From positions 1,804,501 through 1,868,500 of the forward strand of contig NZ_CP104209.1 in assembly GCF_025244765.1 (NCBI RefSeq): a stretch of 64,000 nucleotides of DNA, in the 5' to 3' direction. The stretch comes from Empedobacter stercoris (lineage in GTDB: Bacteria; Bacteroidota; Bacteroidia; Flavobacteriales; Weeksellaceae). The notes beneath the pieces are model-generated. The model was not told the origin of the DNA, ran no database searches, and saw only the letters and a list, made by a program, of their open reading frames with translations. The translations under genes and the position numbers were made by a program. Position 1 is the stretch's first letter; each line of letters begins with the position of its first letter. Positions 7,107 through 63,860 of this stretch are shown piece by piece.

Positions 7107-7619
7107 TTACAAGTCCTTAAGATTATTTTTAATATTTATTCTTCCAAAAAAAAGAAGAGATAAATATTGTAAAATAGATAAGTCTAAACAAATTTCATTC
7201 ATTATAAGTGTATTATTTATACTTGTCATGTTTTCATAATGTTGTCCCATTATTTTAAAACTAGTCATATTATTTTTATCTACTAAATATATAACATTAT
7301 AAGAACCTGTAATACTTACCTCCTGCATACGTATTTTACCTATAAATTTGTCCAAGTCTAAAGACTTGCCAAAAGGGTGAAATATATTATAATATTTCAA
7401 CGTGTCTTTTTTTAAAATTATCCATTTTATATGTTTTAAAAAATTTACTAGAAAGTATAGAATAATAATAAGAAACAGTATAATTAATATATTGATTATA
7501 CTGAAATTATTATAAATATATCTCAATCCTTTTAACACCATAAACACTCCTATTATAAAAAACAATAAAGAGAATATTCCCCAAAATATCGTGTCTTTTT
7601 TAAATTTACTTATTATCAT
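7107..7619 (-). CDS. Hypothetical membrane protein, possible orphan immunity protein
   Basis: 170 residues. Two hydrophobic segments (about residues 10-35 and 42-62) are followed by a small soluble domain with a beta-rich look, like PH-type domains of small membrane proteins. The ATG at 7619 is preferred over an in-frame TTG at 7634 that would overlap the preceding stop. It starts 1 nt after the stop codon of the decayed toxin-like gene, the usual position of an immunity gene. The AT content is extreme even for this genome, which also fits an immunity cassette. No family was recognised; the immunity role is inferred from position. Confidence 0.6.
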   Translation of the reverse strand: MIISKFKKDTIFWGIFSLLFFIIGVFMVLKGLRYIYNNFSIINILIILFLIIILYFLVNFLKHIKWIILKKDTLKYYNIFHPFGKSLDLDKFIGKIRMQEVSITGSYNVIYLVDKNNMTSFKIMGQHYENMTSINNTLIMNEICLDLSILQYLSLLFFGRINIKNNLKDL

Positions 7620-10257: not shown

Positions 10258-10736
10258 AAGAATATTTTGCTAAAGCAAAAGAAAAACAACGCGAACACAA
10301 AAAATTTTTGGAGAAGTTGAAGAAGAAACCACCTAAAAACTTGGATCAAAAAATGGAAGAAATTCACGAAGATGTTTTCAATCGTATTGATTGTCTTTCT
10401 TGCGCGAATTGTTGCAAAACAACTGGTCCACTTTTTACACAAAAAGATATTGAGCGTTTAGCGCATGTTTTTCGAATCAAACCAAGTCAATTTATTGATA
10501 AATATTTGCGAATTGATGAAGACAACGACTATGTTTTGCAGCAAGTTCCTTGTCCGTTTTTGGATAGTGAAAATTATTGTTTGGTTTATGAAGATCGCCC
10601 GAAAGCTTGTCGTGAATATCCGCATACAGATCGTAAGAAATTTTACCAGATTAATCATCTTACCATAAAAAACACGCTAATTTGTCCTGCGACTTACGAA
10701 GTTGTAGAACAAATGCAGAAAGAAATAAAAGTATAA
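10239..10736 (+). CDS. YkgJ-type cysteine-cluster protein
   Basis: 165 residues. The ATG at 10239 has a good AGAAGGAGA ribosome site upstream and is preferred over an earlier in-frame start at 10197. A charged helical N-terminus is followed by the family signature CLSCANCC (C52, C55, C58, C59) and two later cysteines in PCPFLD..NYCLVY and RPKACREYP. The family (Pfam CxxCxxCC) is thought to bind a metal, zinc or iron, and has no settled function. It overlaps the UV glycosylase gene and ends exactly where the next gene starts. Confidence 0.88.
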   Translation: MGDHFLEEYFAKAKEKQREHKKFLEKLKKKPPKNLDQKMEEIHEDVFNRIDCLSCANCCKTTGPLFTQKDIERLAHVFRIKPSQFIDKYLRIDEDNDYVLQQVPCPFLDSENYCLVYEDRPKACREYPHTDRKKFYQINHLTIKNTLICPATYEVVEQMQKEIKV

Positions 10737-54814: not shown

Positions 54815-55278
54815 GAAATCTATTATTTTCATTTTTTGCTCATCCAAAAAACGAAACAAAAAAAGATGCCGACAGTAGTCTCTCAATGATTCAACTAAAT
54901 AAATTATTTCCATAAAGTTGGCAACTCGCTCCACTCAGACACTCCAACTTTTTTTATTCCAATAATTTAGAGTTGAATTGCATTTCGATCCTAAATCGTC
55001 GGATTTTTCTAATTCTTTTTTCTAATTCAGATTCGTTATCACTTTTATCAACGAATTTTAGAGTTGACATACGATTTGCAGACGAGCTTCAATCCATTGA
55101 AACAAGCGTAAAAAAGATTAGTGAGCGTATGCGAATCATTTAATCTTTTTAGTGCGTGAGATGAGAATTGAACGTCGAAAATCGCAGTCTTGTAATGCTT
55201 TGCATTCATGAATACCTTAAAAATAATAATAAACCATATGAATAACTTTTGATTACTTTTTGATCAAGCAAAAAGTAA
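54802..55278 (+). repeat. Modular ~0.5-kb repeat, unit 1
   Basis: Shares its start (TTTGAAGTAT, GAGAAATCTATTA) with unit 2 but lacks the CATATGCCCTTCGGG module, which is deleted between TTTTTT and GCTCATCC. It carries the GATGCCGACAGTAGTC central segment, the AAGTTGG/CCAACTT hairpin, a 36-bp module at 55059-55094 also found at 63825-63860, the AATGCTTTGCATT segment, and a final 11-bp hairpin ATTACTTTTTG/CAAAAAGTAAT with loop ATCAAG (55251-55278). No coding content supported. Confidence 0.85.
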
Positions 55279-55345
55279 TAAATAAAGAACTACTAATTAT
55301 CCTCTTATTCACGCAATTATGTTCAGAATCTCAACTCGTTGTTAA

Positions 55346-55880
55346 TTTGAAGTATCGAGAAATCTATTACTTTCATTTTTTATTCATTACATTTCTATTT
55401 TAATTATCGGTATTTATATGCCCTTCGGGTAAGCTCATCCAAAAAACGAAACAAAAAAAGATGCCGACAGTAGTCTCTCAATGATTCAACTAAATAAATT
55501 ATTTCCATAAAGTTGGCAACTCGCTCCACTCAGATACTCCAACTTTTTTTATTCCAATAATTTAGAGTTGAATTACATTTCGATTCTAAATCGTCGGATT
55601 TTTTTTTAATTCCTATTTAAACATTCGAATTCGTTTATAACAATGAATTTATAAATCGTCATTGCTGAAAAGTCGAGCGTCAATTCGGCGTAGTGAGCGT
55701 TAAAAATGATTTACTGTTCGCATTTCATATGCGAATGTTCTAAAGCATTTAGCGAATAGCCATTATTGACCGACTTGTAAGCACAGACTTGTAATGCTTT
55801 GCATTCATGAATAACATAAAATAATAATAAACCATATGAATAACTTTTTGGTTCGTTTTTTCATCAAGGAAAAAATGAAC
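55346..55880 (+). repeat. Modular ~0.5-kb repeat, unit 2
   Basis: Complete unit: start segment, CGGTATTTATATGCCCTTCGGG module (55408), central GATGCCGACAGTAGTC segment, AAGTTGG/CCAACTT hairpin with T7, CGATT/AATCG, an internal stem of GTCG, GTCAAT and GGC words pairing with GCC, ATTGAC and CGAC (about 55672-55785) around a TTCGCAT/ATGCGAA hairpin, AATGCTTTGCATT, and a final 12-bp hairpin GTTCGTTTTTTC/GAAAAAATGAAC with loop ATCAAG (55851-55880). Confidence 0.88.
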
Positions 55881-55884
55881 ATAA

Positions 55885-56419
55885 AGTACTTTCTATCACT
55901 TTTTTATTCATTACTTTTCTATTTTAATTATCGGTATTCATATGCCCTTCGGGGAAGCTCATCCAAAAAGCATTTGAAATTAAAAATTTGAAATTAAAAG
56001 GAGGAGCCATGGTATGGCTCAGGTAATTCAACTAACTAAATTATTTCCATAAAGTTGGCAACTCGCTTCTCTCAAACACTACAACTTTTTAATTTCAATA
56101 ATTTAGAGTTGAATTACATTTCGATTCTAAATCGTCGGATTTTTTTAATTCCTTTTTAAACATTCGAATTCGTTTATAACAACTAATTTATAAACCGTCC
56201 TTGCTGAAGAGTCGAGCGTCAATTCGGCGTAAAGAGCGTTAAAAATGATTTACTTTTCGCATTTTATATGCGAATGATTTAAAGCATTTAGCCAATAGCC
56301 AGTATTGACCGACTTGTAAGCATAGACTTGTAATGCTTTGCATTCATGAATACCATAAAATAATAATAAACCATATGAATAACTTTTTGGTTCGTTTTTT
56401 CATCAAGGAAAAAATGAAC
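55885..56419 (+). repeat. Modular ~0.5-kb repeat, unit 3
   Basis: Follows unit 2 directly. Same order of modules, but the central segment is the other type, with AAGGAGG and the GAGCCAT/ATGGCTC hairpin (56004-56020). A short internal duplication of TTGAAATTAAAA is present. The AAGTTGG hairpin is weakened (ACAACTT). Ends with the same GTTCGTTTTTTC hairpin, loop ATCAAG (56390-56419). Confidence 0.88.
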
Positions 56420-62113: not shown

Positions 62114-62192
62114 TTGTACACTAAACAATAAGAGGTTAACTAAAATTTAAGAGATCTTTAACAAATCTTATTATTAAGGTTAATTCAATCTT

Positions 62193-62260
62193 TCTTTTTC
62201 ATTTTTTATTCATCGCTTATCTATTTTAATTATCGGTATTCATATGCCCTTCGGGGAAGA
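62193..62260 (+). repeat. Repeat module copy, CATATGCCCTTCGGGG type
   Basis: Solo copy of the ~55-bp module (TTATTCAT...CGGTATTCATATGCCC, TTCG, GGGGAA) that forms a CCC-TTCG-GGG tetraloop hairpin. It is followed here by unrelated GAGCGCAAAAAAG rather than GCTCATCC. Confidence 0.75.
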
Positions 62261-62309
62261 GCGCAAAAAAGTAATCAATGCTTCGAAAGGCTCAGCCCAA
62301 GCAACTCTT

Positions 62310-62605
62310 GGCCGTAAACCTCTCTACTAAAAATGTTCTCATTCCACTAAAGATTTTAAAAACCCTACGGGCTAAAACCTTTTAAACGCTCCATTCAAAC
62401 ATTTTCTTAACGTGAGAGTTTTAATGCCGGTTTCTCATCCTTTTTCAATATTCAAATTCATTTTTAAAAACAGATTTTGTCATTCTGGGCTTGTATCAGA
62501 ATCTCATCTTGTTGGTATTCTTAGCTTGTCGAAAAAGCTCTTCCTTTCATTTTTTATTCATTACTTATGTATTTTTATTGTCGGTATTCATATGCCCTTC
62601 GGGGA
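62310..62605 (+). repeat. ~300-bp direct repeat, copy 1
   Basis: Begins GGCCGTAAACCTCTCTACTA and ends in the CATATGCCCTTCGGGG module. It recurs almost unchanged at 63357-63657, an offset of 1047 bp. Includes AAACCCTACGGGCTAAAACC and a GTCATTCTGGGCTTG extragenic sequence. Confidence 0.85.
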
Positions 62606-63002
62606 AGCTCATCCAAAAAACATTTGAGATTAAAAGGAGGAGTCACGGTGTGGCTCAGGTATTTTAAATAAATTATTTCCATAAAGTTGGCAACTCGCTC
62701 CACTCAAACACTCCAACTTTTTTTATTCCAATAATTTAGAGTTGAATTGCATTTCGATTCTAAATCGTCGGATTTTTTTAATTCCTATTTAAACATTCGA
62801 ATTCGTTTATAACAACTAATTTATAAACCGTCCTTGCTGAAGAGTCGAGCGTCAATTCGGCGTAAAGAGCGTTAAAAATGATTTACTTTTCGCATTTTAT
62901 ATGCGAATGATTTAAAGCATTTAGCGAATAGCCAGTATTGACCGACTTGTAAGCATAGACTTGATTTTTTTGGTTCGTTTTTTCATCAAGGAAAAAATGA
63001 AT
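62549..63002 (+). repeat. Modular ~0.5-kb repeat, unit 4
   Basis: Same module order as unit 3, but the central hairpin is GAGTCAC/GTGGCTC (62640-62656) instead of GAGCCAT/ATGGCTC. About 50 bp containing AATGCTTTGCATT is deleted after ACTTG near 62962. Ends with the GTTCGTTTTTTC hairpin with loop ATCAAG (62973-63002). Confidence 0.87.
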
Positions 63003-63010
63003 GTAAAATA

Positions 63011-63300
63011 CTTTCTGTCACTTTTTTATTCATTATATATCTATTTTTATTGTCGGTATTCATATGCCCTTCGGGGAAGCTCATCTAAAAAAACATTTGA
63101 GATTAAGAGGAGGAGCCATGGTATGGCTCAGGTAATTCAACTAAATAAATTATTTCCATAAAGTTGGCAACTCGCTCCACTCAAACACTCCAACTTTTTT
63201 TATTCCAATAATTTAGAGTTGAATTGCATTTCGATTCTAAATCGTCGGATTTTTCTAATTCCTATTTAAACATTCAAATCCACGTTTTATAACATTTGAA
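63011..63300 (+). repeat. Modular repeat, unit 5 (3'-shortened)
   Basis: Contains the TTCG module (63053), AAGGAGG-like site, GAGCCAT/ATGGCTC hairpin (63113-63129), AAGTTGG/CCAACTT hairpin and AAATCGTCGGATTT, then stops before the GTCGAGCGTCAAT part and continues into other sequence at about 63280-63300. Confidence 0.85.
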
Positions 63301-63356
63301 ATTAAAAATTCTTTAATGTCACTTTTTACTTGACTAAAAAGTAACCAAAAAGTCAA

Positions 63357-63657
63357 GGCCGTAAACCTCTCTACTAAAAATGTTCTCATTCCACTAAAGA
63401 TTTTAAAAACCCTACGGGCTAAAACCTTTTAAACGCTCCATTCAACCATTTTCTTAACGTGAGAGTTTTAATGCCGGATTTTTCTAATTCTTTTTCAATA
63501 TTCAAATTCATTTTTAAAAACAGATTTTGTCATTCTGGGCTTGTATCAGAATCTCATCTTGTTGGTATTCTTAGCTTGTCGAAAAAGCTCTTCCTTTCAT
63601 TTTTTTATTCATTACTTATCTATTTTTATTGTCGGTATTCATATGCCCTTCGGGGAA
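63357..63657 (+). repeat. ~300-bp direct repeat, copy 2
   Basis: Second copy of the segment at 62310-62605, differing by a few substitutions and a short insert (GGATTTTTCTAATT in place of GGTTTCTCATCC). Preceded by a CACTTTTTA/TAAAAAGT-type hairpin near 63320-63345 that is a variant of the unit-end hairpin. Confidence 0.85.
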
Positions 63658-63715
63658 ACTCATCTAAAAAAACATTTGAAATTAAAAGGAGGAGCCATGG
63701 TATGGCTCAGGTATT
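63600..63715 (+). repeat. Modular repeat, unit 6 (short)
   Basis: TTCG module followed by AAGGAGG and the GAGCCAT/ATGGCTC hairpin (63692-63708), then cut and joined straight to the next module copy at about 63716. Confidence 0.8.
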
Positions 63716-63717
63716 CC

Positions 63718-63860
63718 TTTTCTTTATTTTCATTTTTTTATTCATTACTTATGTATTTTTATTGTCGGTATTCATATGCCCTTCGGGGAACAGTCAAAAA
63801 AACTAACGAAAAAAGACTTAATTGTAGAGTTGACATACGATTTGCAGACGAGCTTCAATC
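63718..63860 (+). repeat. Repeat modules: TTCG module plus 36-bp module
   Basis: A TTCG module copy (63766) followed by CAGTCAAAAAAAC, then the 36-bp segment at 63825-63860 (TAGAGTTGACATACGATTTG and onward) that is identical over its length to 55059-55094 in unit 1. Confidence 0.75.

Follow-up and report, generated by a model that had tools for sequence, protein, structure and literature searches.

The window analysed here, a stretch of 64,000 nucleotides from Empedobacter stercoris, carries four hairpins in which one loop sequence, ATCAAG, is closed by stems whose two arms differ together between copies, and the question raised by this locus is what such a fold belongs to and whether it matters. 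In the original prediction the hairpins were the ends of four local repeat units, and the concerted change of both arms around a constant loop was taken as a sign that the fold matters. The reading that we favour, and hold to be probable though well short of certain, is that the hairpin is one stem (S2) of a conserved pseudoknot at the 3' end of a non-autonomous mobile element of Bacteroidota, whose + strand fold is recognised in trans.

Hairpins of the window and the partner of their loop

All four hairpins were found in the window, those of units 2, 3 and 4 exactly where they had been placed (55851-55880, 56390-56419 and 62973-63002, + strand), whereas that of unit 1 lies at 55252-55279 (+ strand), its earlier coordinates (55251-55278) being one base low. 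The stem of unit 1 has the expected 11 pairs (ATTACTTTTTG-ATCAAG-CAAAAAGTAAT), and the stems of units 2-4 have 12 pairs including one internal G-T, the outermost pair of unit 4 being likewise G-T. Compared with dinucleotide shuffles, the isolated hairpins gave z values of -7.2 (unit 1) and -5.9 (units 2/3). Since perfect hairpins of at least 11 pairs are not rare within the window, the strength of the evidence resides in the common loop and its context, not in the stem alone.

The loop is indeed kept, as predicted, but its upstream partner, CTTGAY, which forms a second covarying helix, had been missed; the loop sequence is constant because it is paired with that partner. The arrangement is complete in unit 4, which has no insert and in which the intact series CTTGAT-TTTTTTG-GTTCGTTTTTTC-ATCAAG-GAAAAAATGAAT occupies 62960-63002 (+ strand). 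There the loop is the exact complement of the upstream CTTGAT, and the arms interleave in the order S1a, S2a, S1b, S2b: S1a (CTTGAT) at 62960-62965, the linker L1 (TTTTTTG) at 62966-62972, and hairpin S2 at 62973-63002, whose loop, at 62985-62990, is S1b. In units 1-3 the partner is invisible because S1a is split by an insert of 53-54 nt. In unit 1 this insert (about 54 nt, 55193-55246, + strand) lies between CTTG and the linker and includes ACCATATGAATAAC; in unit 2 (53 nt, 55792-55844, + strand) it stands in place of 3 nt of uninterrupted copies (locus L007 compared with L003), and the same insert is present in unit 3 at approximately 56331-56383. The sequence ACCATATGAATAAC preceding the hairpins is common to units 1-3 (repeat family D12), as had been noticed, but it belongs to the end of the insert.

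The hairpin marks the 3' terminus of a dispersed element and does not close a local repeat unit. The element measures about 100-250 nt, carries no gene, and consists of a body followed by the pseudoknot. Unit 4 represents a complete copy of about 175 nt with a type I body (62828-63002, + strand; 5' end approximate), and its ends agree with those of 19 copies of the genus. Units 2 (55657-55880) and 3 (56195-56419), both on the + strand and with S1a split, also have type I bodies, unit 2 with a CGAAC-class S2, while unit 1 (55052-55279, + strand; 5' end approximate) combines a type II body with a GTAAT-class S2. A fifth element, on the - strand at 63318-63477, joins a type III body to an intact GTAAC-class pseudoknot (63318-63357) in which CTTGAC and GTCAAG are both kept; further copies of it were found at four loci (L017, L018, L021 and L022). 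The stem classes GTAAT/GTAAC and CGAAC are each joined to different bodies, and the difference between unit 1 and units 2-4, presented earlier as a compensatory change, is a contrast of two widespread classes. Judged from the window copies alone, exchange of modules could explain it, and the case for covariation rests on other copies.

Several other repeats were observed around these elements. The type III body occurs twice in the window (family D8: 62303-62433 and 63350-63480), with a pseudoknot at one of the two only (63318-63477). An eight-fold repeat (D1/D3; 62191-62314, 63011-63134, 63590-63713, 63723-63846 and others) ends in CATATGCCCTTCGGGGAAG, and in L013, L016 and L204 the S2b arm is replaced by a repeat with this ending; a similar ending (CGAAG/CGTAG ... 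CAT.ATGA) was observed in other genera (L084, L128 and L139), so that the 3' end of the element may exist in an alternative form. A second conserved hairpin, of 13 bp, ATTTAGAGTTGAA-TTRCAT-TTCGATTCTAAAT, was located at 55560-55591, 56101-56132, 62734-62765 and 63211-63242, near AACTCGC..CTCAAACA; this neighbourhood shows the element's tip motif in opposite orientation, and the hairpin probably represents one more such module. The arrays of copies are clearly tandem duplications, and an integron-like cassette array was rejected because the spacers are themselves repeats.

Covariation in the pseudoknot and in the body

The layout is that of an H-type pseudoknot, of which the hairpin looks like one half: two interleaved helices were found, each with covariation (T-A/C-G and A-T/T-A in S1, several pairs in S2). 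Among 21 distinct motifs of equal length, 93.9% of cells pair, even with four rows lacking S2b retained as a fair test. The covariation score was 0.283, compared with 0.121 in shuffled data (0 of 500 shuffles) and at most 0.085 with partners slid, and two-sided changes were present in 33 cells versus 11.8 in shuffles (0 of 500). The junction pair of S1 is T-A in 11 and C-G in 8 of the 21 copies, and an alternative S1 sequence, TGTC:GACG, is present in 4 of 19 elements of the genus. In a scan whose pattern left free both the upstream arm of S2 and the agreement of the variable loop base with its partner, the two bases were T-A in 99 cases, C-G in 9 and mismatched in 1. When the loop sequence itself was left unspecified (stem, loop and complement of the loop downstream), 181 matches were obtained in 1.06 Mb, versus 8 after shuffling, and 159 of them were CTTGAT or CTTGAC; these 1.06 Mb are loci picked by the motif, so that the result shows specificity, not prevalence. 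Because there is no linker (0 nt) at either the S2a-S1b or the S1b-S2b junction, a complete S1 of 6 bp would be strained and sterically tight.

Runs of 5-8 T, T and A are carried by L1, S2a and S2b, respectively, and the T-run lengths of L1 and S2a are correlated (Spearman 0.475, p 2e-7; 108 distinct motifs), L1 of unit 4 following the same trend. The core U-A pairs of S2 are nearly invariant and the pairs around them vary. The topology, together with these invariant, length-matched tracts, hints at a putative U.A-U triple helix of the telomerase type between L1 and S2, although slippage in A/T runs could also yield the agreement in T-run length.

On the + strand the element reads, in order, a (T)GGCC-type 5' start, a long imperfect hairpin directly 5' of S1a, CTTGAY, a run of 5-8 T followed by G, S2a, RTCAAG, and S2b ending in TGAAC. 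The hairpin that makes up the body has two conserved internal loops (CGTTAAG opposite TAG, and tandem G.A pairs near the tip), and its arms vary among genomes yet match their own partner (22.7 for cognate versus 16.2 for swapped arms, p 4e-15; 63 distinct bodies). In an alignment of 19 Empedobacter elements, 94.4% of cells were paired, a figure biased upward since the 51-pair structure was drawn by hand from the same alignment; less affected by that bias, two-sided changes occurred at 20 of the 51 pairs, amounting to 86 cells compared with 23.9 in shuffles (0 of 500), and all seven helices contributed. In columns 67-68 and 77-78 of this alignment, the G and A of the tip-proximal tandem G.A motif never vary; the internal loop CGT... 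opposite TTTTAG is mostly invariant, and RNAalifold recovered the structure in part. Pairing in S1, S2 and four body helices is shown by covariation, and the proposal that the fold matters holds up well beyond the window, two-sided changes being far above shuffles both in the 21 pseudoknots and in the 19 whole elements of the genus.

Symmetric changes in the arms, which are A/T tracts, would also be expected if the site were a palindrome bound as double-stranded DNA by a dimeric protein, with no folding involved. A simple palindrome, however, predicts neither the body helices nor the majority G.T pair, which is strand-asymmetric, and the four interleaved arms (S1a S2a S1b S2b) co-vary independently; we consider this explanation very improbable.

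Distribution, placement and folding strand

Among Bacteroidota the element occurs widely, though patchily. About 24 copies, of two stem classes, are present in the genome from which the window comes (G000), and a scan of one genome per species retrieved at least 120 stretches with the motif. Among the matches listed were Flavobacteriaceae, Weeksellaceae, Saprospiraceae, Neolewinella, Cyclobacterium, Pontibacter, Flexithrix, Mangrovibacterium and others. The first genome-wide pattern did not include the GTAAC stem class, which was scanned separately; of 394 evenly drawn Bacteroidota genomes, 2 matched the exact CGAAC-class pattern and 9 the GTAAC-class pattern, with 0 control matches in both cases. 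Within Empedobacter, exact matches were present in 8 of 13 genomes (own genome counted) and absent from 5, with between 0 and 12 such matches in each genome. The motif was also observed on contigs of metagenome-assembled genomes labelled Williamsia, Peregrinibacteria and Calditrichia (L060, L062, L080, L082 and L104), which may represent either mis-binned Bacteroidota DNA or spread outside the phylum. The sole contig of a viral collection with the motif, among the matches listed, was L147 (IMGVR_UViG_3300001264_000004), with two copies at 7317-7347 and 10553-10583.

One 175-bp element has dozens of matches in related genomes, and these matches share their ends. In one of these genomes (G429; 2.4 of 2.84 Mb covered), 34 copies were counted, none of them in predicted coding sequence, though 86% is coding. 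Five orthologous intergenic sites that are filled elsewhere are empty in G429; filled and empty sites differ by more than the element (325 bp versus 8-10 bp at L197), and base-exact excision or insertion was not seen in these comparisons. In 19 flank pairs, inspection by eye revealed neither terminal inverted repeats nor a target duplication, which would point to a DDE transposase, and no base-exact empty site was found. Five copies of G429 (C1, approximately 658388, 1562406, 1627303, 1736991 and 2074629) are all separated by 1137-1139 bp from the nearest gene prediction to one side, as though they belonged to a duplicated context, perhaps rRNA operons; several loci of this genome probably derive from a single duplicated context.

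The strand of folding was approached through pairing, stability and gene orientation. The commonest pair at position 5 of S2 is G.T on the + strand, which becomes an A.C mismatch on the other. Predicted energies were lower for the + strand both as RNA (-8.8 versus -5.1 kcal/mol) and as DNA (-7.2 versus -4.9 kcal/mol). Counting one copy per genome, 15 were sense to their neighbouring genes, 14 convergent, 7 divergent and 5 antisense (sense plus convergent, 29 of 41), and the loci of G429 were distributed as 8 convergent, 6 sense, 2 antisense and 1 divergent, in a genome whose gaps of at least 150 bp comprise 73 convergent and 168 divergent ones. Placement after co-oriented genes is a tendency, not a rule, and the genes next to units 1-3 in the window are antisense to the elements. 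Taken together, the G.T pairs, the stability and the position after co-oriented genes point to the + strand of the window as the one that would fold. A replication-strand bias (about 12 versus 4 loci of G429 co-oriented with the leading strand, read by hand) is confounded with gene orientation and is not claimed.

These same observations would fit an RNA element useful to the host, in which a 3'-UTR pseudoknot, perhaps with a triple helix, shields mRNA 3' ends from exonucleases or exerts regulation, the copies being spread by recombination and retained by host selection. The excess of copies after co-oriented genes, the better folding of the + strand, the agreement in T-run length between L1 and S2, and the scarcity of broken pairs in dispersed copies all agree with it. 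Nevertheless, such a role is hard to reconcile with the patchiness inside one genus described above, with orthologous genes that manage without the element, with the antisense window copies, with at least one copy lying beyond an apparent intrinsic terminator, and with the unrelated genes that up to dozens of copies adjoin, and we regard it as possible but doubtful. For a mobile element recognised in trans, the favoured reading, the + single strand (RNA or single-stranded DNA) would fold in the cell, the fold would be what a trans-acting factor recognises, and the element would thereby spread as a non-autonomous unit.

Candidate mobilisers and relation to known systems

No recurrent transposase or other mobility gene emerged from an all-against-all comparison of the open reading frames near 120 loci. 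An origin from IS91/ISCR-type elements was rejected, since the Y2 HUH transposase (PF04986) is absent from 21 of 22 element-bearing genomes, and so was a retro-element (group II intron, DGR or retron satellite), reverse transcriptase (PF00078, RVT_1) being absent from G000, G424, G427, G429 and G435 and from 6 of 10 other element-bearing genomes. The search for a larger autonomous version, with arms up to 4 kb apart, returned tandem copies and one inverted pair only. In that pair (L118, 597-2000; Catalimonadaceae JC749), two short-bodied copies enclose a 314-aa open reading frame, presumably an AlbA_2/Schlafen-type protein (domain named by eye), and the whole might be a composite mobile unit. 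The mobiliser may be lost, or of another kind.

A Y1 HUH transposase (RAYT; subclass 2.6 or group 5 of Bacteroidetes) cutting the folded strand of a REP/REPIN-like repeat was weighed separately. A folded single strand with bulged stems, in intergenic position and with no visible target duplication, would fit such an enzyme; 'atypical secondary structures', of which the same genome holds further copies, have been described on the flanks of subclass 2.6 genes of Bacteroidetes (PMC6006769), and some Y1 gene is present in 20 of 30 element-bearing genomes. Yet no Y1 match was obtained in the other 10 of the 30, nor in five element-rich members of the genus (G426, G427, G432, G433 and G435), and within the genus the best full-length Y1 genes sit in G425 and G428, both without exact-pattern copies. 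No pseudoknot was found within 1.5 kb of the Y1 loci of element-bearing genomes, and no GTAG/GTGG foot was recognised. The genome of the window has one short Y1 remnant (L026, 1501-1743; C1:2865716-2865958) with one in-frame stop codon and no motif beside it; the GGATTTGCAATCC palindromes that flank this remnant are unrelated to the element. Absence of the motif beside Y1 genes argues that the subclass 2.6 structures, compared here by description, differ from the element. This explanation, already weakened, appears improbable.

A more far-reaching version of the mobile-element reading would be a phylum-wide family whose 3'-terminal pseudoknot, a triple helix of telomerase/ENE type, is recognised or protected, and which is mobilised by neither HUH transposase nor reverse transcriptase; as a whole, we judge it unlikely. 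Should the favoured reading hold, a structured element that many Bacteroidota carry, some of them in dozens of copies, and that belongs to no Rfam family would have escaped notice, and it would offer a clear case of a pseudoknot preserved by evolution while nearly all surrounding sequence changes. It would also raise the question of what copies a gene-less element in genomes without the usually invoked transposases and reverse transcriptases.

No family of Rfam 15 matched the element in the window stretch or at ten other loci, and no description of such an element was found in the open-licence literature, although its covarying helices with conserved internal loops are like those of the structured RNAs in Rfam. 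It is a new relative of the small structured intergenic repeats of the BOX/ERIC/REP kind, not a member of any one of them. ERIC-type enterobacterial repeats are small, gene-less, intergenic, imperfectly palindromic and dispersed, and are presumed to be moved in trans. The element was found to be likewise short, gene-less, intergenic, dispersed and of imperfect palindromic structure, and the BOX, RUP and SPRITE repeats of pneumococcus share these features, including presumed movement in trans (PMC3049150; for the general class of ERIC-type repeats, PMC2229807). Unlike BOX/ERIC, it has a 3' pseudoknot in which CTTGAY/RTCAAG is conserved phylum-wide while the body sequence is free; no sign of terminal inverted repeats or of target duplication was noticed by eye.

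Triple helices are familiar from the telomerase-RNA pseudoknot and from ENE elements. The order S1a, U-rich L1, S2a, S1b, S2b, the A-U stem beside the junction and a U-run able to lie along that stem are shared with them; the present element differs in being bacterial and repeated, and in its 0-nt linkers, and its triple helix is conjectural. Were that helix real, bacteria would have a counterpart of the RNA ends seen in telomerase and in eukaryotic transposons, an ENE being present in a plant retrotransposon (PMC12501189). With REP/REPIN sequences and their RAYT (TnpA-REP; PMC6006769, PMC3733652, PMC3116915), the element shares a strand-specific fold, intergenic position and many copies; unlike them, it is 4-9 times longer, pairs its loop in a pseudoknot, starts with (T)GGCC with no GTAG/GTGG foot in the 19-element alignment, and reaches high copy number in genomes with no linked or even resident Y1 gene.
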